Positions 1,501 through 43,346 of a stretch of DNA of 43,346 nt are shown here, piece after piece. The position numbers and the translations under genes are program-made. Source of the stretch: a virus. Under the pieces are notes generated by a model that ran no database searches, had not been told where the DNA came from, and worked only from the letters and a program-made list of their open reading frames with translations. The DNA lies in IMG/VR virus record IMGVR_UViG_3300007354_000008, positions 1-43,346 of that record; one strand, given 5' to 3'. Every line of letters begins with the position of its first letter. Within the stretch, counting starts at the first letter, position 1.

Positions 1501-1602
1501 AGAAAAAAGAGAGAGATTCTGGGCTGCGGAGAGGCCCTCCGCACGGCCCGGGCGGCGCCGAAAAACCGTGACGGCCTTTCCCCAGCTAGCCCGCCGAAAG
1601 CC

Positions 1603-1652
1603 TGTCCGAAAGTTGTCCGGTTTCTGTCCGAACGTTGTCCGGTTTCTGTCCG
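1603..1652 (+). repeat. Five TGTCCG iterons at exact 11-bp spacing
   Basis: TGTCCG starts at 1603, 1614, 1625, 1636 and 1647, always 11 bp apart. The array can also be read as a 22-bp unit (1602-1623 and 1624-1645, one mismatch) plus a partial third copy. It ends 8 bp before the candidate -35 box of the late promoter and about 165 bp before the small terminase gene. Helically phased repeats in this position could bind an activator of late transcription or the small terminase subunit (pac or cos recognition). Sequence alone does not separate these. Confidence 0.7.
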
Positions 1653-1660
1653 AGTTGGGC

Positions 1661-1689
1661 TTGCGTTCGTGTCGCGGGGGTGGTAGACT
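1661..1689 (+). promoter_or_regulatory. Candidate late promoter ahead of the terminase genes
   Basis: TTGCGT (1661-1666), 17 bp, TAGACT (1684-1689). Both boxes match the consensus at four of six positions, which suits a promoter needing an activator, and the phased iterons lie immediately upstream. Expected transcription starts near 1696. No better rightward promoter was seen between 1500 and 1817. Confidence 0.5.
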
Positions 1690-1750
1690 CCGCCAGAGTG
1701 GGGTACCACGTACAGGACCTTCGTTCAACGGCTGAAGACGGCAAGACCTG

Positions 1751-1784
1751 AAGGCCTCCGGGAGATCTCGGGGGCCTTTATTCG
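1751..1784 (+). terminator. Terminator-like hairpin in the late leader
   Basis: Bases 1751-1762 pair with 1767-1778 (AAGGCC... with ...GGCCTT), about 12 bp with two G-U pairs around a 4-base loop, followed by TTTATT. It lies between the candidate late promoter and the small terminase gene, so transcription would stop after about 85 nt unless antitermination occurs. The short, interrupted T run makes partial termination equally likely. Confidence 0.55.
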
Positions 1785-2498: not shown

Positions 2499-4031
2499 GT
2501 GGCCGAGGTTGACGCCAACCTGGCCTCGAGGCTGGCCACGCCCGCAGGTTTTGCCCAGGTGATGAGCGGTGGCCGCTACGTGCCCGCCCCTCATCACATC
2601 CTCATGTCGGAGTGGGCGGCCGACTGCTTCTACGGCCGGCGCAAGCAGGTCGTGATGAACATCCCGCCCCAGCACGGGAAATCGGAACTCATCTCCGTCC
2701 ACGTGCCGGCCTGGGCTGCTTGCCTTGACCCTGACTCGCCGAACATTCTGACAGGATACGGGGCGGATCTCGTCCACGGGTTCTCAAGACGAGCCCGCGA
2801 CCTGGCAGCCGCTGCCGGTGAGCAGTTCTTCGGTCTCAAGCTCGACAAGAGCTCGGCTGCCGTCGACGAATGGCGGTTCGAAGGACACCCGACCGGAGGG
2901 TGGATCGCGGCCGGCATCAGCGGCCCAATTGCTGGTCGTGGCGCTGGCCGGCTCTTCATCCTGGATGATGCGATCAAGAATCCCCAGGAGGCCTTCAGCC
3001 AGGTCTATCACAAGAACTTCTGGGACTGGTGGCAGTACGTCGTGCTCGAGCGCGTGTGGCCGCAGGCGTCCAAGCTCGTCATCATGACCCGGTGGGCTCT
3101 CGACGACCCGGCCGGCCGGCTCCTTGAGGAAGGGGGTTGGGATCTCCTCCGACTCCCGGCTCTCGCGGAAGAGAACGACCCTCTGGGACGCAAGCCAGGA
3201 GAGGGTCTGTGGCCATGGCGGTTCAAGACGGAGGACTACATCCGGTTGAGAGATGGCGATGGAGACAGTCCCGGAATGCTCCCGGAAGCGTGGGCCGCCC
3301 AATACCAGCAAGCGCCGCTACCACCCGGGGGCGGTCTCTTCAAGCGGGAGTGGTTCCGCTACTTCACGTTCGAACCGGCTCCCGAGGTGGGCGTGCAGAG
3401 TTGGCAGGAGCAGTTTGGGACCTACATCCTGACCACGTCCGAGGGGGAAAAACGCTGGCCGTCGGACAAGGTCTGGCGGTTCAGTGTGTGCGACCCGGCG
3501 TGGACGACCAAGACGACTTCGGACTGGTTCGTGCTCCTGACGTGCGGAGTCACGTCTGATGCGGATCTTCTCCTCCTCGACGTGGTCCGGGTGCGCGTGC
3601 GAGGTCCGGAGGGCGAGGACCTCGTGGCTCAGGACTACGCTAAGTGGCGGCCGGCCTACGAGGGCATGGAGGAAGTCTCGGTCGGCCAGGACATTCTTGC
3701 GAGACTGGTCCGCAGGGGCCTGCCGATGCGGCCGCTCAAGCCGGGACATAGAGACCCTCGGACCCGGGCCCTGACCGCCGCCTCGCGCTACCAGTCCGGT
3801 TCGATCTACCATCGGGCCGGGGCGCTTTGGCTCAACGAGTGGGAGCGCGAGCTCCTGGCGTTCGGGCCGGGCTGCGAGTACGACGACCAGGTCGCCACTA
3901 TCAGCTACGCCGCCCTCGAACTCTACCAGCCCGAGGGCCCCCCGCCGCCCAAGAAGCCCGAGGTGGCACGCATGATCGACGAGATCCTGGCCAAGCAGCA
4001 GCAGGCCCAGGAAGGGGAGAACTGGCTGTGA
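2499..4031 (+). CDS. terL: Terminase large subunit
   Basis: 510 aa. This is the ATPase and nuclease that drives DNA into the prohead at the portal and cuts the concatemer. Walker A is PPQHGKSE (residues 56-63), Walker B is LFILDD (152-157) with the catalytic acid following, and ITRW-like motif III is IMTRW (195-199). The C-terminal RNase H-like nuclease starts with the metal-binding Asp in CDPAW (331-335), a second acidic strand follows at LLLLDVV (357-363), and the last acid pair is in DDQVA near residue 480. It resembles the Terminase_6 / psiM2 ORF9 type. GTG start after AGGAGGGGG. Its stop overlaps the next gene's start (GTGA). Confidence 0.93.
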   Translation: MAEVDANLASRLATPAGFAQVMSGGRYVPAPHHILMSEWAADCFYGRRKQVVMNIPPQHGKSELISVHVPAWAACLDPDSPNILTGYGADLVHGFSRRARDLAAAAGEQFFGLKLDKSSAAVDEWRFEGHPTGGWIAAGISGPIAGRGAGRLFILDDAIKNPQEAFSQVYHKNFWDWWQYVVLERVWPQASKLVIMTRWALDDPAGRLLEEGGWDLLRLPALAEENDPLGRKPGEGLWPWRFKTEDYIRLRDGDGDSPGMLPEAWAAQYQQAPLPPGGGLFKREWFRYFTFEPAPEVGVQSWQEQFGTYILTTSEGEKRWPSDKVWRFSVCDPAWTTKTTSDWFVLLTCGVTSDADLLLLDVVRVRVRGPEGEDLVAQDYAKWRPAYEGMEEVSVGQDILARLVRRGLPMRPLKPGHRDPRTRALTAASRYQSGSIYHRAGALWLNEWERELLAFGPGCEYDDQVATISYAALELYQPEGPPPPKKPEVARMIDEILAKQQQAQEGENWL

Positions 4032-22468: not shown

Positions 22469-22906
22469 TCACTCCCGCAGGAGACCCCTCAATCGCTGCG
22501 GGCCGAGGTTTGCCAAAGTGCCGGCGACCATCATCTTGATGCGCCGGACATGCCTCCCGACCGTCCGCGGATGCCGCCCAAGATCCTCGGCGACGGAGAG
22601 CTGCTTCGCCCGCTGCCCCTTCTCGTCGTACACCCCCCTCCCGTAGACCTTCTCGTAGACCGCCCGGAGGTCGGGGCTGAGTTTTCTCAGGCGGCGCTCC
22701 ACCGCCCGGAGCGTGCTGTCGAGGTCGTCACGGCGGACGACGAACGTCTCGACCGGGGAGCCGATACCGCCGGAGGAGGCTGTCGTCAGCGTGATGTAGG
22801 AACCGCCCCGGGACGGTTCGACGAGGCGCAGTTCCTCGCGCCAGTCGTGAAGGTTACAGAGGACGAGTTCGGCGAGCTCGAGGAGGCGGTTGTTGTCGAG
22901 GATCAT
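22469..22906 (-). CDS. Sigma region 4-like late transcription regulator
   Basis: 145 aa. The C-terminal half has the sigma-70 region 4-type HTH: LRAVERRLRKLSPDLRAVYE, then QLSVAEDLGRHPRTVGRHVR (about 106-125), as in ArpU/RinA-like phage late activators of Firmicutes. The N-terminal third begins MILDNNRLLELAELVLCNLH. It is the promoter-distal gene of the early operon, a classic place for the switch to late transcription. The ATG overlaps the previous stop (ATGA); a longer reading frame upstream would overlap that whole gene and is not used. Its target could be the iteron-bearing promoter at 1661. Confidence 0.7.
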   Translation of the reverse strand: MILDNNRLLELAELVLCNLHDWREELRLVEPSRGGSYITLTTASSGGIGSPVETFVVRRDDLDSTLRAVERRLRKLSPDLRAVYEKVYGRGVYDEKGQRAKQLSVAEDLGRHPRTVGRHVRRIKMMVAGTLANLGPQRLRGLLRE

Positions 22907-23583: not shown

Positions 23584-23873
23584 GTCGGGTCCTCCTCTCC
23601 TGTCTTGTCATGCCGGTTGGGAGACGGTCGTCCCGGCCGCAACATCACGGCATCGATCAGTCCCTCGCCCACGGCGTAGTCGTCGGCCGTCACGTTGGCC
23701 GCCTGGATTATGCCGCCCTGACTTCTTAGGTCGGCCAGGGTCACGTTGGCCGCCTGGATTATGCCGCCCTGACTTCTTAGGTCGGCCAGGGCTGGCTCGA
23801 ACCAGCGTCGAAACTTCTCCGGGTCCATCGCGACCCTGATGGTCGCCGTCACCCGCCAAGTGCTGTCACTCAT
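23580..23873 (-). CDS. Hypothetical protein with an internal perfect 17-aa duplication
   Basis: 97 aa. The N-terminus (TWRVTATIRVAMDPEKFRRW) is a mixed strand-helix segment. Residues LADLRSQGGIIQAANVT occur twice in direct succession, matching a perfect 51-bp DNA tandem repeat, so the gene gained 17 codons recently. The unduplicated form would be about 80 aa. ATG overlaps the previous stop (ATGA) with GGGAGGG upstream. Function unknown. Confidence 0.65.
   Translation of the reverse strand: MSDSTWRVTATIRVAMDPEKFRRWFEPALADLRSQGGIIQAANVTLADLRSQGGIIQAANVTADDYAVGEGLIDAVMLRPGRPSPNRHDKTGEEDPT
23689..23790. repeat. Perfect 51-bp tandem duplication
   Basis: Bases 23689-23739 and 23740-23790 are identical across all 51 bp. 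The length is a multiple of three and the copies encode the same 17 residues, so the reading frame is kept. The identity at silent positions shows a recent event. Confidence 0.9.
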
Positions 23874-27279: not shown

Positions 27280-27491
27280 GGCATCTCCACTCCCATCCCT
27301 CGCAGTCTGGCCCGGGCGCGATCGACTTCACCGAGGGCTCTCTCGGTGCTCCGCCGACCGGCCCGGGTCCGGTAACACTGGATGAGTTCGGCCTGGGCCC
27401 GGATGAGCTCGGCCAGGGCTTCCACTCCGGCCTCGATCTCGGCCCGGGCCCGGTCACTGGCTCTCGCGCGGAACTCGCGGGCACTGCTCAT
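27276..27491 (-). CDS. Small helical protein (71 aa)
   Basis: A single Arg/Ala/Glu-rich helical region (SSAREFRARASDRARAEIEA) with a C-terminal helix; probably a coiled-coil dimer. Both ends overlap neighbours by ATGA. A longer upstream frame exists but lies inside the ParB-like gene. Not recognised. Confidence 0.6.
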   Translation of the reverse strand: MSSAREFRARASDRARAEIEAGVEALAELIRAQAELIQCYRTRAGRRSTERALGEVDRARARLRGMGVEMP

Positions 27492-29353
27492 CCAGCCGCC
27501 TCCAGCGCCTCGGCCTCGTCGGGGTATGCCTGCTGGCCTTTCTGGCAGCCGGAGAACTCGTCGCAGTCCGGGCACTTGTGAGGGGCCTCGCCCTTCAGCA
27601 CGTAGTCGCAGCATTGTCCGGTCATGCGGAGGTCGTCGTTGCACGACCGGCACTCGCGGGCGTCGACGATCTTCCGGAGGTAGTGGCAGGCAGCGGGTTC
27701 GGGCTCCTCGTCGGGGTCGTCGGCGGGAGGCTCGGCGGGGCCCGCGTCAGCCGCCTCGTGTCTCGGGTGGCAGCCGCAGCGGGTCTCGGAGCACTCCTCA
27801 CAGACGCCGCCGCAGTCGAGGCCCTCCCCCATCTCCTCGTCCGAGGCCTCGGCGGCCGCCTCGCCCTGGGCGTCCTCCACGGGATCCACGGCCTGGCCAT
27901 CGTCGTCCACGCGGTAGGCGCCACCCTCGGAGGGGTCAGGGGTGTGGGCTGTCTCCTCCGCCGGAGGGGTCCAGCCGATCACCTGGTTCTTGATGTCCTC
28001 ATAGGCGGTATCCCTTGGGAGATATCGCCCATCGGCATTGTCCCAGGTCCAATTGGTCTCGGCCGTCAGCAGGTGTTTGACGGTCTGTCCGATGAGGGTC
28101 GGCAGGTCGGCCCGGGAGAGTTCATCGGCCTGTTCCGGGGCAAGGGCGAACCGCGAGGTGTAGGCGCATATGAGGCGGAGTTCGGCGTCGGAGACGGAGC
28201 CCCCCGACGTGCGGGCGGAAAGGTAACTCTCAGCCCTTTCCAGGCGCTCCTTCTCGCGGCTATCCCATACCGCCCTCGCCCTTTCCTGTCGTTCGCGCCT
28301 GGTCTTCCACTCCAGGTCTTGGCTCTCCTGACTACTCGCCGCCTTGTTGGCCTTCCTCCGTTCGCGGTAGCAGTCCGAATCACGGTCGAGACAGAAGGCC
28401 CGGCTTTCCCCCGCGGCACTGCCGACCCTGGCCTTCTTCCGATGCTCGCAGCTTGCCGGGCAGTCATCGAAGGCCTCCGTCAGGCGGTTGTCCTCTGTCC
28501 AATCAATCGGCTTGCCGGCGAGGACCTTCTCTACGGCCGCGGCCTTCTTGGCTTCCTTCGCGGCCGCGTTCTTGGTCTTCCAGCAGGCCGGGTCCGTGCA
28601 CCGTAGACCACCCCAGCGCCCCTCGACCTTGTTCTCGCAATCCTTACACTCGGTGGCTCCGTCGAACTCCAGGCCGTGCCGGAGGTCCTTGGTGACCCCC
28701 TCGACGGCTTCGCCCACGAGGGATTTGACTCGCTCGACCGTGATGTCGTCGCCGTTGGCAATGTGGCTGTCGATGAGATCCTGGGTCTTCTCCACAGCAT
28801 TCGGCAGGTGCTTGACCTTCAGTATCTCCTGCGCCGCCGAAGCCGAGAGTATTCCGCGCGTAATGAGTTCTTGGCCCGCTTCGGGCAGCGCGAGGAGCCG
28901 AAGCCTGTTGGCGATGTAGGGCTGGCTCTTACCGAGGCGCCGGCCGAGATCTTCTTGCGTGACCTCCGGGTAGCTCTGCAGATAATCCCGGTAGGCCCGG
29001 GCCTCGTCGATGGGGTTGAGGTCCTCCCGCTGGAGGTTCTCGATGAGCCGAAACTCGTGGACCTTCTGGTGGTCTATGCCCATGACGCGGCAGGGCACAG
29101 CTTCAAGGCCGGCCGCCTTCGCGGCCCGGAGGCGTCTGAAGCCGGCCACCAGTTGAAGCCCGTTCAGGATCGGTGACCCCTGGACGATCAGTGGTTCGAT
29201 GATGCCGTGAACCTGGACCGAGGCTAGGAGTTCGGCGTCCTTCTCCGGGTCGGTCGCGGTCCGGACGTTCTCCGGGATGGTGATGGCGGCCACGGGAATG
29301 TGTTGGAACTCAAACTCGCGCTCATATTGTGAAGGTTCCCTCGAAGCTGTCAC
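27488..29353 (-). CDS. ParB-like protein fused to a long Cys-rich region
   Basis: 621 aa, about twice the size of ParB/Spo0J. The ParB/Srx-fold N-terminus has the CTPase boxes GFRRLRAA (71-78) and ENLQREDLNPIDEA (105-118), followed by a KorB-like HTH (about 131-152). Then come several Cys clusters: CKDC and CTDPAC near 238-258, two more near 315-330, and a C-terminal region with CGGVCEECSETRCGCH, CRSC and CPDC after an acidic linker. No ParA is encoded nearby, so partition is doubtful; phage ParB-like proteins can be transcriptional or nucleolytic. The GTG start overlaps the previous stop (GTGA). Confidence 0.82.
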   Translation of the reverse strand: MTASREPSQYEREFEFQHIPVAAITIPENVRTATDPEKDAELLASVQVHGIIEPLIVQGSPILNGLQLVAGFRRLRAAKAAGLEAVPCRVMGIDHQKVHEFRLIENLQREDLNPIDEARAYRDYLQSYPEVTQEDLGRRLGKSQPYIANRLRLLALPEAGQELITRGILSASAAQEILKVKHLPNAVEKTQDLIDSHIANGDDITVERVKSLVGEAVEGVTKDLRHGLEFDGATECKDCENKVEGRWGGLRCTDPACWKTKNAAAKEAKKAAAVEKVLAGKPIDWTEDNRLTEAFDDCPASCEHRKKARVGSAAGESRAFCLDRDSDCYRERRKANKAASSQESQDLEWKTRRERQERARAVWDSREKERLERAESYLSARTSGGSVSDAELRLICAYTSRFALAPEQADELSRADLPTLIGQTVKHLLTAETNWTWDNADGRYLPRDTAYEDIKNQVIGWTPPAEETAHTPDPSEGGAYRVDDDGQAVDPVEDAQGEAAAEASDEEMGEGLDCGGVCEECSETRCGCHPRHEAADAGPAEPPADDPDEEPEPAACHYLRKIVDARECRSCNDDLRMTGQCCDYVLKGEAPHKCPDCDEFSGCQKGQQAYPDEAEALEAAG

Positions 29354-32279: not shown

Positions 32280-33633
32280 AGTGCCTCGACCTCCGTTCCT
32301 CGCGGCCTCCGAACAACTCGGGCTTCCTGGGGGTTTGAATGTTGTCGGTCCGGAAGCGCACAAACTCGGGCTCCCACTCGATGCAGACCTCACCGGTGGG
32401 GCCGTTCCGCTGCTTGGCCACGATGACCGTGACCTTGTTGAGGCCCACGTGCTTGGGGTCGTGCCAGAGAAGGAGGACGTTGTCGGCGTCCTGCTCGATG
32501 TCCCCCGATTCCCGGACGTCCGACAGCTGCGGCTTCTTGTCGGCCCGGCCTTCGGGCTCCCGGTTCAACTGGCAGAGGAGCAGCACCGGGCAGCCGAGAT
32601 TGCCGGCCATGTCGCGGATGCGCTTCACCTGCTGGCCGACATGCTGGGCCCTCGTCTCGCCTCTCTGCTCGGGGTCCCGGATAAGTCCGAGGTAATCGAT
32701 GACGACGAGGCCCACGCCCTTGACCCGGCGCGCCTTGGAGACGATGGAGTGCGTCGACTGGCCCCTACGGTCGTCGACCCAGAGCGGCGTCGCGCCGAAC
32801 TCGGCGATGGCCAGGGTGCCGGCCTCCCATCTCTCGTCCGTGAGCCGGCGGGCCCGGACGTCGCGCATGTTGATCTCCGCGCCCATGCTGATCAGGCGCT
32901 CGGCGATCTGCCGCGCCGACATCTCCAGGCTGAAGAGCACAACCGGGACCTGGCGGGCGGCCACGGTCCGGGCGATCGCGAGAGCCAGGCTCGTCTTCCC
33001 GAGAGAGGTCCGGGCGGCCAGGACGGTGAGGTCTCCGGGTTGAAGACCGACGAGCTTCCCGTCAAGGGCCGCGAACCCGGTCGGAAGGCCCACAAGTTCG
33101 CGGCGGTCCCTCGCGTCGTAGAGCTCGCGCCAGTGCGCGGCGGCCACGGGCCCGATCGGCCTCGGCCCCGGGTCGAAGGCGCTCAGTGAAGAGGCTCCGA
33201 GGATCCGCCTCTCGGCCTCGTCGGCAAGGGCCTCGAGCTCGACCGTGGAGTCGTGGGCCATGCTCGAGATGAGCGCGGCCTCCCGGATGAGCCGGCGGCG
33301 GACGCTCGCCTCCTTGACCTGGCGGGCATAGTGCATCGCGTGGGCGGCCGTCGGGACCGACCGGGCCACGGTGACGACGTGGGACAGGCCGCCGGCGCGC
33401 TCGAGATGCCCCTTCTCGGTCAAGGCCTTCGGGAGCGTCACGGCGTCGATGGGCGTCCTGTCGTCGTGCATGGCGAGCATGGTCGCCCAGATGACCTGGT
33501 GCTTGTCCTCCGAGAAGTCGTCAGGCGCCAGCATGGCCGCGAGTTCCGTGACCTTGTCGGGGTCGATGAGGCACGAGCCGATGACGGCCTGCTCGGCCTG
33601 GATGTCCTGGGGAGGCGTCCGGCCCTGACTCAT
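32272..33633 (-). CDS. dnaB: Replicative DNA helicase DnaB
   Basis: 453 aa, the usual length. A hexameric 5'-3' helicase that opens the replication fork. The N-terminal helical domain starts QDIQAEQAVIGSCLIDPDKV (9-28); the RecA-like domain has Walker A ARTSLGKTS (207-215; many relatives have GRPSMGKTA), the SLEMS motif (235-239), Walker B VVIDYLGLI (310-318), and the downstream QLNRE...DVRESGDIEQDAD signature. GC-rich context but normal sequence. ATG overlaps the initiator stop (ATGA). Confidence 0.95.
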   Translation of the reverse strand: MSQGRTPPQDIQAEQAVIGSCLIDPDKVTELAAMLAPDDFSEDKHQVIWATMLAMHDDRTPIDAVTLPKALTEKGHLERAGGLSHVVTVARSVPTAAHAMHYARQVKEASVRRRLIREAALISSMAHDSTVELEALADEAERRILGASSLSAFDPGPRPIGPVAAAHWRELYDARDRRELVGLPTGFAALDGKLVGLQPGDLTVLAARTSLGKTSLALAIARTVAARQVPVVLFSLEMSARQIAERLISMGAEINMRDVRARRLTDERWEAGTLAIAEFGATPLWVDDRRGQSTHSIVSKARRVKGVGLVVIDYLGLIRDPEQRGETRAQHVGQQVKRIRDMAGNLGCPVLLLCQLNREPEGRADKKPQLSDVRESGDIEQDADNVLLLWHDPKHVGLNKVTVIVAKQRNGPTGEVCIEWEPEFVRFRTDNIQTPRKPELFGGREERRSRHFD

Positions 33634-34550
33634 GTGGCGATCTCACCCCCGGCCTCGCGGAGGTGGCTCAGGAACGCCTCGGCCTCGCGGGTCTGCTCCT
33701 CGGCTGTGGGACCGCGGGCGGTGGGTCCTGCCCGGGCTCCCTGCTTCTGGGCTTCCTTCTCCGCCTTCTCCAGCCAGTTTCTGAGCCGCGACCGCCAGTT
33801 GCCCTGGGGCTTGCCGGCCCACCAGTCCAAACACTTGTCCGCCTCGTGGGCGAGGTCAACGTGCGGGAACCTCACGAGCCACTTCCGGACGCAGCCGACG
33901 TCGACCTCGTAGCTGAACGGGTAGCCGTCGATGCCCCGGAGCACCCGGAGGATCTCGCGCTCCTGTTCGGTCAGACCAAGCGGTGGCGACGGTTCCTCGG
34001 GCTCCTCCGGGAATCGGGTTCGGGTTCGGGTTCGGGAATCGGGTTCGGGAATCGGTGCGGCTTCGATGCCGCTTTCGTGGCCCTCCGATGCGGCTTCGAT
34101 GCGGCTTCGATGCGGCTTCGATGCGGCTTCGATGACTCTCCCGAGAGCCTTCGCAAGCTCGGGGCAGATGGTCTGGGCGATATCCAGGAACGCCTCTAGG
34201 AGCGATGTATCGGGAAGCTCGCGGATGACCGAAACGGCCCCGACCGTCTGCTTGCCGGCCCCCGGCGGGTCGTCCTCGAACGCCTGCGGGACGAAGACGA
34301 CTTCGGCTGCGGCATCGTAGCGCACGTACTCCCGGACGGCCACGAGTTCATCGAGGGCGCTCGTGAGCCGCGGGAGGTCCCATCCGAGGTCGGCCGTCAT
34401 GTAGGCCACGGGGCAGTAGTAGAGCGCCACCATGTTCCGGTGGGAACAGGTCGAAAGGTAGAGCGCGAGGGTCCGGGCATCCTCCGACCAGTCGCGGGAG
34501 ATGCGCCAGAAGCGCGGGCTCACGTGGTAGTACCGTCCGAGAGGCGTCAC
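33630..34550 (-). CDS. Phage replication initiator-like protein carrying internal iterons
   Basis: 306 aa. The N-terminus (YYHVSPRFWRISRDWSEDAR, then TLALYLSTCSHRNMVALYYC) is typical of phage replisome-organizer / helix-turn-helix initiators that precede DnaB. Residues about 140-200 are repetitive and charged (IEAASKPHRSRIEAAS), corresponding to DNA iterons, followed by a C-terminal domain with LTEQEREILRVLRGIDGYPF and LRNWLEKAEKEA. The combination of initiator, internal iterons and helicase downstream follows the lambda O/P plan. ATG overlaps the preceding stop. Confidence 0.75.
   Translation of the reverse strand: MTPLGRYYHVSPRFWRISRDWSEDARTLALYLSTCSHRNMVALYYCPVAYMTADLGWDLPRLTSALDELVAVREYVRYDAAAEVVFVPQAFEDDPPGAGKQTVGAVSVIRELPDTSLLEAFLDIAQTICPELAKALGRVIEAASKPHRSRIEAASEGHESGIEAAPIPEPDSRTRTRTRFPEEPEEPSPPLGLTEQEREILRVLRGIDGYPFSYEVDVGCVRKWLVRFPHVDLAHEADKCLDWWAGKPQGNWRSRLRNWLEKAEKEAQKQGARAGPTARGPTAEEQTREAEAFLSHLREAGGEIAT
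34010..34055. repeat. GGGTTC / GGGAATC short tandem repeats
   Basis: GGGAATC, then GGGTTC three times, GGGAATC, GGGTTC, GGGAATC in direct succession, inside the initiator gene. In the protein they give the Arg/Thr/Pro/Glu-rich linker. They adjoin the 11-bp iterons and may be part of the same origin region. Confidence 0.65.
34087..34130. repeat. Four perfect 11-bp iterons (GATGCGGCTTC), candidate origin
   Basis: GATGCGGCTTC occurs four times without a gap (34087, 34098, 34109, 34120), followed by GATGAC; two degenerate copies lie upstream (about 34054-34075). Because 11 is not a multiple of three the copies are read in different frames, so the DNA repeat, not the protein, is conserved, as expected of initiator-binding iterons in a phage origin. 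Confidence 0.7.
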
Positions 34551-38142: not shown

Positions 38143-38415
38143 TTATGCGCAACTCGGCGGCCGGTTGAGCGGCCTCCCCTCGAGCGGGTCCTGCCCGTCC
38201 TGTTGCAGGTCTCCCGCGATGCGTAGCCGGACCCGGACGCGGGTGCCGCCCGGCGACCTGCGGACAAGCGCGTGCCTGGTGATGCAGTCGTCGACCCCCA
38301 TCCGGCCCAGGGCCTCCGCGAGTTCGCGCTGGGCGAACCTCCGGGTCTCCCGGGTGTGGGCCCCGGCCACGGTCATGGCCAGGCTGTCGATGCACTCCTC
38401 CGCCTCACGCGGCAT
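38143..38415 (-). CDS. Hypothetical early protein (90 aa)
   Basis: ATG after GGGAGGTG. The N-terminal half (EECIDSLAMTVAGAHTRETR then RFAQRELAEALGRMG) is helical; the C-terminal half is basic and beta-rich (RVRVRLRI) and then Pro/Gly-rich. Overlaps the upstream XRE gene by 11 nt. Not recognised. Confidence 0.6.
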   Translation of the reverse strand: MPREAEECIDSLAMTVAGAHTRETRRFAQRELAEALGRMGVDDCITRHALVRRSPGGTRVRVRLRIAGDLQQDGQDPLEGRPLNRPPSCA

Positions 38416-38953
38416 GTCGTTTCACCTCCCGTCCCTGGATGTAACCCTTGGCCGCCAGGTCGGCCCTGTGCTCGGCGTGGATCTCCCGCAGGCTCCTCCC
38501 GTAGTCCCGGCAGAGGACCGCCAGGAACGTCCGGCACGCGGTCTTGACCTGGACCACCTGCCGGGCCGCGTGGTCGATCTGCGCGTTTCCGGCCTCGCCG
38601 AGGTCGGCGGCGTTCCTGCAGTTGGTGAGCGGTTCGCAGGCCCACACGGCGTCGATGGCCTCCTGCAGTTCCTCGATCAGCTTCCTGGCCACCGAGGAGC
38701 GGTGGGTATCGACCCGGGGCCCGTCGAGCCAGGGCGAACCGATGCCCCCGGAGGCCTCGAGTTGGACGGCCGCCGTGAACCTCGGGTCATCCAGGAACTC
38801 GACCAGGCTCCGCGCCACATCCGGCGCGAGGCGCCTCTCCCCGTTCTCGACCATGCCGACCATGTTGGCCCCATAGCCGACCCGGCGGCCGAGCTGTCCC
38901 TGGGTGAGGCCGCGGGCCTTCCGCGCCTCACGGAGCGCTGTGGCGATTCCCAT
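38405..38953 (-). CDS. XRE-family DNA-binding protein (182 aa)
   Basis: Residues about 5-55 form an HTH_3 domain (ALREARKARGLTQGQLGRRV then GANMVGMVENGERRL). The rest is helical with several Cys and His, so it differs from the simple Cro. It is the third gene of the early operon after the small repressor and excisionase-like genes, and may regulate early transcription. ATG after GGGGGTGAAACGAG. Confidence 0.78.
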   Translation of the reverse strand: MGIATALREARKARGLTQGQLGRRVGYGANMVGMVENGERRLAPDVARSLVEFLDDPRFTAAVQLEASGGIGSPWLDGPRVDTHRSSVARKLIEELQEAIDAVWACEPLTNCRNAADLGEAGNAQIDHAARQVVQVKTACRTFLAVLCRDYGRSLREIHAEHRADLAAKGYIQGREVKRHAA

Positions 38954-42496: not shown

Positions 42497-42718
42497 CTAC
42501 CCCTCCAGTCGAAACTCCGTCCAGTCGGCCGGCGGCCTCCCGGCCTCGACCGCGAGGTACTCTCGTTGCCGGCGTCTCACGGTGTTGATCGCGACGGCCT
42601 GGGCATGGAGGTATCTCGAGATATCGCGGTAGTCCTCCGGCCGGATGGAGATCAGTCTGTTGCAGGCCCGCTCAAGGCGGCGCCGGGCCCGCTCCAGGCG
42701 CGTAAGGACGCGGCCCAT
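42497..42718 (-). CDS. Small basic helical protein (gene B, 73 aa)
   Basis: ATG one base after the stop of the 42720 gene. N-terminus MGRVLTRLERARRRLERACN is Arg-rich and matches the stub at 4-39; the middle (PEDYRDISRYLHAQAVAINT) is helical. Likely to bind nucleic acid by its charge. The partner gene upstream is the paralogue of A1. Function unknown. Confidence 0.65.
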   Translation of the reverse strand: MGRVLTRLERARRRLERACNRLISIRPEDYRDISRYLHAQAVAINTVRRRQREYLAVEAGRPPADWTEFRLEG

Positions 42719-42719
42719 T

Positions 42720-43346
42720 TCAGGCCTCCTCCTCCTCGGTGATCTCGTCCACGAGATCGCCAATCTCGTCGTACTCGCCCCTGGCCCACCCCATGGCCAG
42801 GACCTCGAACCGCTCCCCGGCTACCTCGTGGCCGTCGATGATTACGGCCCCGGTCGCGGGGGTCTCGACTTGGTGGCCGGCGGCCTCGAGGTCGGCCAGG
42901 AGGCGATGGGTAGCCAGGGCGAAGGATTGGTCGCTGGTCCGGATGGCGCCGACAGCGCCCAGACGCGTCCGACCGACGAGGATTACATCGCCGTCGGCGT
43001 CCGGGCCCGGCGCCTGCAACTCGAACCGCGCCGGAACGGACGCCCGGGCCGCGTCGAGGGTCTCGAACGCCTGGCTGGCGTGGGCGGGCATTCCGTCCCG
43101 TGCGTGGTAGGAGACCACGAACGGCTTCGCCTCCGGGTCCTGGCTGAAGACCTCGGACACGGTGACGATCTCAGGCGAGCGACGGGAGGCGATGTACTCC
43201 TGGACCTGACTCCAGGTCCAGGCCGGGTGGTTGCCCACGTACTGCTTGGGCTCCGGGATGCCGGCCAGGCCGCGGGTCCGATACGACCCGACGGTCTCCG
43301 TGTTCCATTTTTTCGCCGGAAACGCCTCGGCCAGGGCCAGGGCGAA
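42720..43346 (-). CDS. HTH-containing protein, paralogue of A1 (A2, partial)
   Basis: At least 208 aa; the N-terminus is cut by the window edge. It keeps the HTH-like part (AEAFPAKKWNTETVGSYRTR, then AWTWSQVQEYIASRR) and is close to A1 over most of its length: EYIASRRSPEIV, QDPEAKPFVVSYHARDGMPA, then A-domain-like and DEITEEEEA at the C-terminus. The order A2-B mirrors A1-stub at the other end. No function assigned. Confidence 0.7.
   Translation of the reverse strand, partial: FALALAEAFPAKKWNTETVGSYRTRGLAGIPEPKQYVGNHPAWTWSQVQEYIASRRSPEIVTVSEVFSQDPEAKPFVVSYHARDGMPAHASQAFETLDAARASVPARFELQAPGPDADGDVILVGRTRLGAVGAIRTSDQSFALATHRLLADLEAAGHQVETPATGAVIIDGHEVAGERFEVLAMGWARGEYDEIGDLVDEITEEEEA

Follow-up and report, generated by a model that had tools for sequence, protein, structure and literature searches.

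A phased TGTCCG array as the probable operator of a phage late promoter, with a divergent ArpU/Alt/Ltr-type protein as its likely activator

The known systems closest to the locus studied here are phage late promoters preceded by direct repeats. Alt, the late activator of the Lactococcus phage TP901-1, binds four imperfect direct repeats located between -76 and -32, and the late-promoter repeats of the Ltr system of Staphylococcus phage Phi13 are required for promoter activity, which is abolished by their deletion (PMC13123087). Here we analyzed IMG/VR virus record IMGVR_UViG_3300007354_000008, a stretch of 43,346 nucleotides that we call the window, in which five TGTCCG hexamers in 11-bp phase lie at the start of the late operon. 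Comparison with related loci makes it very probable that this array is the operator of the phage late promoter and that a protein of 145 amino acids (aa), encoded elsewhere in the window, is its activator. The elements on which this assignment rests are listed below; C72 is a sister phage described further on, and HTH stands for helix-turn-helix.

1570-1588, plus strand: GACGGCCTTTCCCCAGCTA block immediately 5' of the array, with 18 of 19 bases kept in C72 even though the array there has drifted
1603-1652, plus strand: putative operator array, five TGTCCG cores at 1603, 1614, 1625, 1636 and 1647, with 11-bp phase and a 22-bp alternating unit
1661-1666, plus strand: -35-like hexamer TTGCGT; TTGCG is also found in C72
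1681-1689, plus strand: extended -10 element TGG-TAGACT (TAGACT at 1684-1689), 31 nt after the last core, as in C72
1817-2497, plus strand: probable small terminase gene (terS), 226 aa, first of the late operon, with an HTH-like N-terminus and named by position
2499-4031, plus strand: large terminase gene (terL), matching phrog_38 (2.3e-73)
22469-22906, minus strand: proposed late activator of divergent ArpU/Alt/Ltr type, 145 aa, with a sigma-70 region-4-like HTH; last gene of the minus-strand block

A preliminary description of this DNA had reported the five TGTCCG copies and their exact 11-bp spacing, and both were recovered when the plus strand was read again. The distance of 8 bp to the promoter given there is also correct, as measured to the -35-like TTGCGT. 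The term perfect repeats, on the other hand, applies to the six core bases and not to the spacers, which are AAAGT, GTTTC, AACGT and GTTTC in order. Because these spacers alternate, a second description of the array is a 22-bp repeat present 2.4 times with 96% matching. The frequency of TGTCCG in the whole window is ordinary (33 copies, with 35 expected), so it is the array that is special and not the hexamer as a word. When all hexamers were examined at periods of 7 to 30, a phased run of five copies was unique to TGTCCG; it is the longest run in the window, followed by a 4-copy 11-bp array at 34.1 kb. Our own arithmetic from the frequency of the hexamer gives an expectation of about 1e-12 per window for five copies at 11-bp phase.

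To place the 145-aa protein, an ArpU profile was built from 16 ArpU/Alt-type activators, excluding the protein itself, and compared with every open reading frame (ORF) of the window of at least 60 aa. Only the 145-aa protein matched (hhalign, 4.8e-5); the next ORF, which is unrelated, scored 0.068 and the best of 40 shuffles 0.15. A profile of the protein's own family matched the ArpU profile with 97.5% probability (E=8.4e-12). Homologues with 30-32% identity match phrog_248, annotated as transcriptional activator (three with E-values from 5e-13 to 2e-7 and a fourth with 9e-5), and bona fide ArpU proteins fall in the same phrog_248. The AlphaFold model of the regulator is of moderate quality (predicted local distance difference test, pLDDT, 71), and sigma region-4 domains rank first when it is compared with folds in the PDB, with weak E-values. 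Judged by its sequence, the 145-aa protein belongs to the ArpU/Alt/Ltr late activators, as a diverged representative.

Searches of phage and viral-contig collections with terL, terS and the regulator returned no near relative, and a sample of 396 genomes from the phylum of a Streptomyces genome gave weak matches only, mostly inside much longer frames. Relatives came solely from a search of the host class, which is the class of the Symbiobacteriaceae metagenome-assembled genome (MAG) L271. Genome G153 of this set carries the window phage itself (contig C8) and also the second phage, C72, whose regulator is 65% identical to the 145-aa protein; more distant regulator homologues occur in G032, G006, G007, G029 and G023. 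In five of these six other phages (C72, G032, G006, G007 and G023) the regulator gene adjoins the array and promoter, the 11-bp phased array and a -10 element lying directly 3' of it. Out of 200 shuffles, the number as good as the array was 0 for C72, G032, G006 and G023, and 4 for G007. Genes resembling terS and terL come next in C72, G032, G006 and G007, and the gap from array to -10 is 20-22 nt in G032, G006 and G007. In G032, TTGTCCGsTTT repeats start immediately after the regulator homologue. The preliminary description had proposed a search for the motif in relatives; the 11-bp arrays were found at five of the six homologous regulators, but the core sequence varies. It is TTGTCCG in G032, TTGGCACC in G006, TTGTCCA/TTGACCG/TTGGCCC in G007, TTGWCGG in G023, and of CGCTCC type in C72, with one TGTCCG among the copies. 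The array motif drifts along with the regulator.

Phage C72 is informative as a control. The blocks kept around its array are GACGGCCTTTyCCCAGCTA upstream, TTGCG at -35, the extended -10 and the leader start GTGGnGTACCACGTACA. All five array positions are retained, with a gap of 31 nt (or 32 nt in another register), while the array core and the recognition helix have changed in step, and neither terS nor terL is related to its counterpart in the window phage. The array therefore follows the regulator and not the terminase, which argues for an operator and against a packaging site. Since the 31-nt gap is common to both phages, it is more than a peculiarity of a single sequence.

A comparable geometry is found in other ArpU-type phages. 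In a survey set of 284 distinct TGTCCG arrays taken from public contigs, an extended -10 peaks sharply at exactly 21 nt past the last core (15 cases), with a lesser peak at 10 nt, i.e., one repeat nearer to the -10; a further peak at 29 nt probably reflects the start-site motif of these promoters. Arrays with the 21-nt extended -10 sit at or just past the 3' end of the regulator gene. Four of the tested regulators preceding arrays, all from independent IMG/VR phages, score above the NCBIfam cut-off for TIGR01637 (L202, L207, L211 and L119), and two further ones are longer sigma-like proteins. Late genes follow most such arrays, either terS/terL or a PBSX-like tail operon. Annotated ArpU phages also combine 11-bp repeats with a 21-nt gap, the core being TGGCGG in phiFL2B, TTGCAG in Harrison and Pd_22F, and TGAGAC in CL2. 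When 750 stretches were sampled, period 11 was best with a score of at least 23 in 11, ten of which lie downstream of ArpU-type regulators and one of which is the DnaD-gene iteron array at the origin. A control with the reversed motif gave 60 viral stretches, against at least 120 for the real motif, which shows that part of the raw array count consists merely of tandem repeats, and we therefore relied on the -10 spacing and the linkage to regulators instead. The late-operator features present at the window locus are direct repeats before the promoter of the packaging and late operon, the 11-bp phase and an encoded activator homologue. Comparison across phages in this way documents that the array is present with its characteristic phase and spacing, that it is linked to the regulator family, and that this family is homologous to ArpU. 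One of the two options in the preliminary description was that the array serves the 145-aa sigma-like regulator as an activator site, and this option is well supported by the homologues with a downstream array and by the ArpU/Alt homology.

Several observations weigh against the assignment. No array was seen at the sixth regulator homologue, in G029, and the stretch scanned at the ArpU loci of GBSV1, phiOH2, Sitara, 2972 and TS-12 contains no clear 11-bp array. The gap in the window is 31 nt as against 20-22 nt in classical phages, and so departs from the 21-nt spacing, with the extended -10 present. Taken alone, the 145-aa protein has no significant ArpU match in NCBIfam, and its sigma region-4 matches in Pfam are below threshold. 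Furthermore, the regulator gene lies about 21 kb from the array and on the opposite strand, whereas relatives have the gene next to the array. In contig G153:C8, window positions 2 and 42503 are directly joined, which means that the minus-strand block is continuous through the circle, with the regulator as its last gene; inversion of this early block would account for the separation of regulator and array.

The other option in the preliminary description was a packaging recognition site, i.e., a cos or pac site bound by the small terminase. Packaging sites are often near terS, and the array is situated 165 bp upstream of the terS-like gene, whose product has an HTH-like N-terminus. Nevertheless, we regard this as very unlikely: C72 keeps five sites in the same place and the leader, but its terS and terL are non-homologous to those of the window. 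The array motif tracks the regulator rather than the terminase, independent phages keep a constant distance to the -10, and the PBSX-like arrays lead into a tail operon, with no terminase seen close behind them. The starts of the window and of G153:C8 are both away from the array, and being assembly breaks they are no proof of DNA ends.

A different regulator could also bind the array, repressing or modulating the late promoter. The window encodes two candidates, and a host factor is a third.

38405-38953: XRE-type protein, DNA-binding
27488-29353: ParB-like protein, DNA-binding

The array is placed upstream of the -35, a location from which regulators of several kinds act, and this agrees with such a role. 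However, no linkage of an XRE-type or ParB-like protein to such arrays was found, while the sigma-like family is linked to them, and the GTTGA-N5-TCAAC inverted repeats at the divergent promoter would suit an XRE repressor better, which leaves this explanation improbable. That the array represents the iterons of a replication origin is extremely unlikely. Arrays of TGTCCG at 11 bp with an origin-like look do occur within ORFs beside purine-rich tracts in many unrelated phages, but the late array is intergenic with a promoter next to it, and is not in or near an initiator or helicase-loader gene with an AT- or purine-rich tract. Separately, the window contains an iteron-like 11-bp array whose core is different, at 34052-34134 within a DnaD-like helicase-loader gene.

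For the assignment of the array as operator and the 145-aa protein as activator, we infer binding, activation, stoichiometry and the contact with RNA polymerase as follows. Encoded by the gene that closes the early minus-strand block, the 145-aa protein would use its sigma-region-4-like HTH to line up head to tail on the five TGTCCG cores, along a single side of the DNA. Once bound, the activator would bring host RNA polymerase to the weak TTGCGT-N17-TGGTAGACT promoter or hold it there, so that terS, terL and the structural genes would be switched on after early expression. Classical ArpU/Alt promoters have 21 nt between the end of the last core, which overlaps the -35, and the -10. In the window and C72 this distance is 31 nt, about one turn of the helix more, and the last core lies upstream of a free -35-like element. 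This arrangement suggests a different contact with RNA polymerase, which is likely more class-I-like, such as with the C-terminal domain of the alpha subunit. A broader picture can be sketched tentatively, in which a large family of sigma-region-4-like late activators might polymerise, head to tail, along 11-bp arrays, the core drifting with the recognition helix as a readable protein-DNA code, and one high-GC lineage might have moved the array away from its promoter by one turn and so changed the mode of RNA polymerase activation.

In the promoter itself, the spacer between TTGCGT and TAGACT is 17 nt, and transcription is predicted to start at about position 1696. Two hairpins follow in the leader.

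1698-1709, plus strand: hairpin GTGG-GGTA-CCAC at the start of the leader RNA, kept in C72 with loop AGTA
1751-1779, plus strand: terminator-like hairpin with a weak T tract, between the late promoter and terS; similar hairpins occur in other ArpU-type phage leaders

Strict terminators are present in the leaders of TP901-1, TP-778L (already annotated there), phiFL2B, IPP24, Javan87, L207, G006 and G007 (at most 3 of 100 shuffles), and the leader hairpins of the window, C72 and G032 fall short of that standard. The hairpin at 1751-1779 may be an attenuator or a read-through control of late transcription. The terS candidate had no significant family match, a search against Rfam gave no meaningful match, and no tRNA genes were found in the window.

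Other repeats and arrays were encountered. Within the DnaD-like gene (33630-34550, minus strand), which lies upstream of the DnaB gene in an operon, a second 11-bp array, TCGATGCGGCT, of about seven copies occurs beside 13-bp and 6-bp repeats at 34008-34134, a region that is a probable replication origin. The GTTGA-N5-TCAAC inverted repeats, at 1453-1467 and 1486-1500, lie at a near-consensus minus-strand promoter, TTGACA-N17-GATAAT (1499-1471), and are likely operators through which a repressor controls the early block. At the end of the window, 843 bp (42504-43346) that form a 69% similar copy of part of gene 41-1405 are missing from the circular copy G153:C8; they may represent variation between strains or an overhang left by assembly. 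A perfect 51-bp tandem duplication is found at 23689-23791, inside a minus-strand coding region. In unrelated phages, in-ORF TGTCCG 11-bp arrays beside pyrimidine/purine-rich tracts (L005, L027, L206, L229 and many other loci) are apparently origins within replication genes; the core that they have in common with late operators may reflect coincidence or selection by the search pattern. Locus L025 has a similar geometry but no related gene, and TGTCCG arrays in Duganella chromosomes and Streptomyces were judged unrelated. In Oxalobacteraceae chromosomes (L242, L244, L267, L276, L327, L328 and L337), one conserved chromosomal gene has a TTGACC-N17-GATSAT promoter preceded by 4-6 TGTCCG copies spaced at 11 bp. 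Also judged unrelated were the long inverted TGTCCGCTTGT arrays of one Bacteroidetes MAG, RUG13410 (L247, L250, L257, L259 and others), where dozens of them are scattered, each with a short spacer at its centre.

For a phage whose regulator and small terminase are without relatives in the phage collections searched, the analysis points to a probable operator of the late switch and to the protein likely to regulate it. For phages not yet characterised, it also offers a simple rule by which to look for late promoters and their activators: a region-4-like gene is followed by an 11-bp array, and this by a -10 at a distance of 20-22 or about 31 nt. The pairs of regulator and array from the window, C72, G032, G007, G023 and G006 form a compact test set for DNA choice by sigma-like HTH domains and for class-I versus class-II activation.

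Among known systems, the SARP (Streptomyces antibiotic regulatory protein) activators use direct repeats about 11 bp apart near the -35 and have a winged OmpR-type DNA-binding domain; no SARP protein was present among the window proteins scanned. The ArpU family (TIGR01637) shares with the window the region-4-like HTH, the GS..TE..A motif region, 11-bp arrays, the extended -10 and control of terS and the late operon, but differs in that the window protein alone is below the cut-off, in the gap (21 nt versus 31 nt) and in that the activator gene of the window is at the opposite end of the genome. PBSX-like tail-cluster regulators, which are sigma-like proteins (L226, L100, L043 type), likewise have TGTCCG arrays after the regulator gene, with the extended -10 at 21 nt and longer proteins (about 205 aa); most of these arrays precede the tail-sheath operon, that of L100 an HTH gene. 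TP901-1 resembles the window in its direct repeats upstream of the late promoter, which are four 11-mers if TATACT is the -10 (register inferred), and in a terminator-like hairpin ahead of terS. It differs by another core, imperfect repeats, an array nearer to the -10 and an activator gene adjoining the promoter. By description, Ltr of Phi13 and RinA of phi11 are also similar, as late regulators acting on repeats before the packaging operon (PMC13123087), although the Phi13 repeats are 18 bp long and the phase here is 11 bp. The view in the preliminary description that no such type was known gives way to these precedents, Alt of TP901-1 and Ltr of Phi13 (PMC13123087): the type of operator is already known, and what is novel here is an array placed about one turn further from its promoter.
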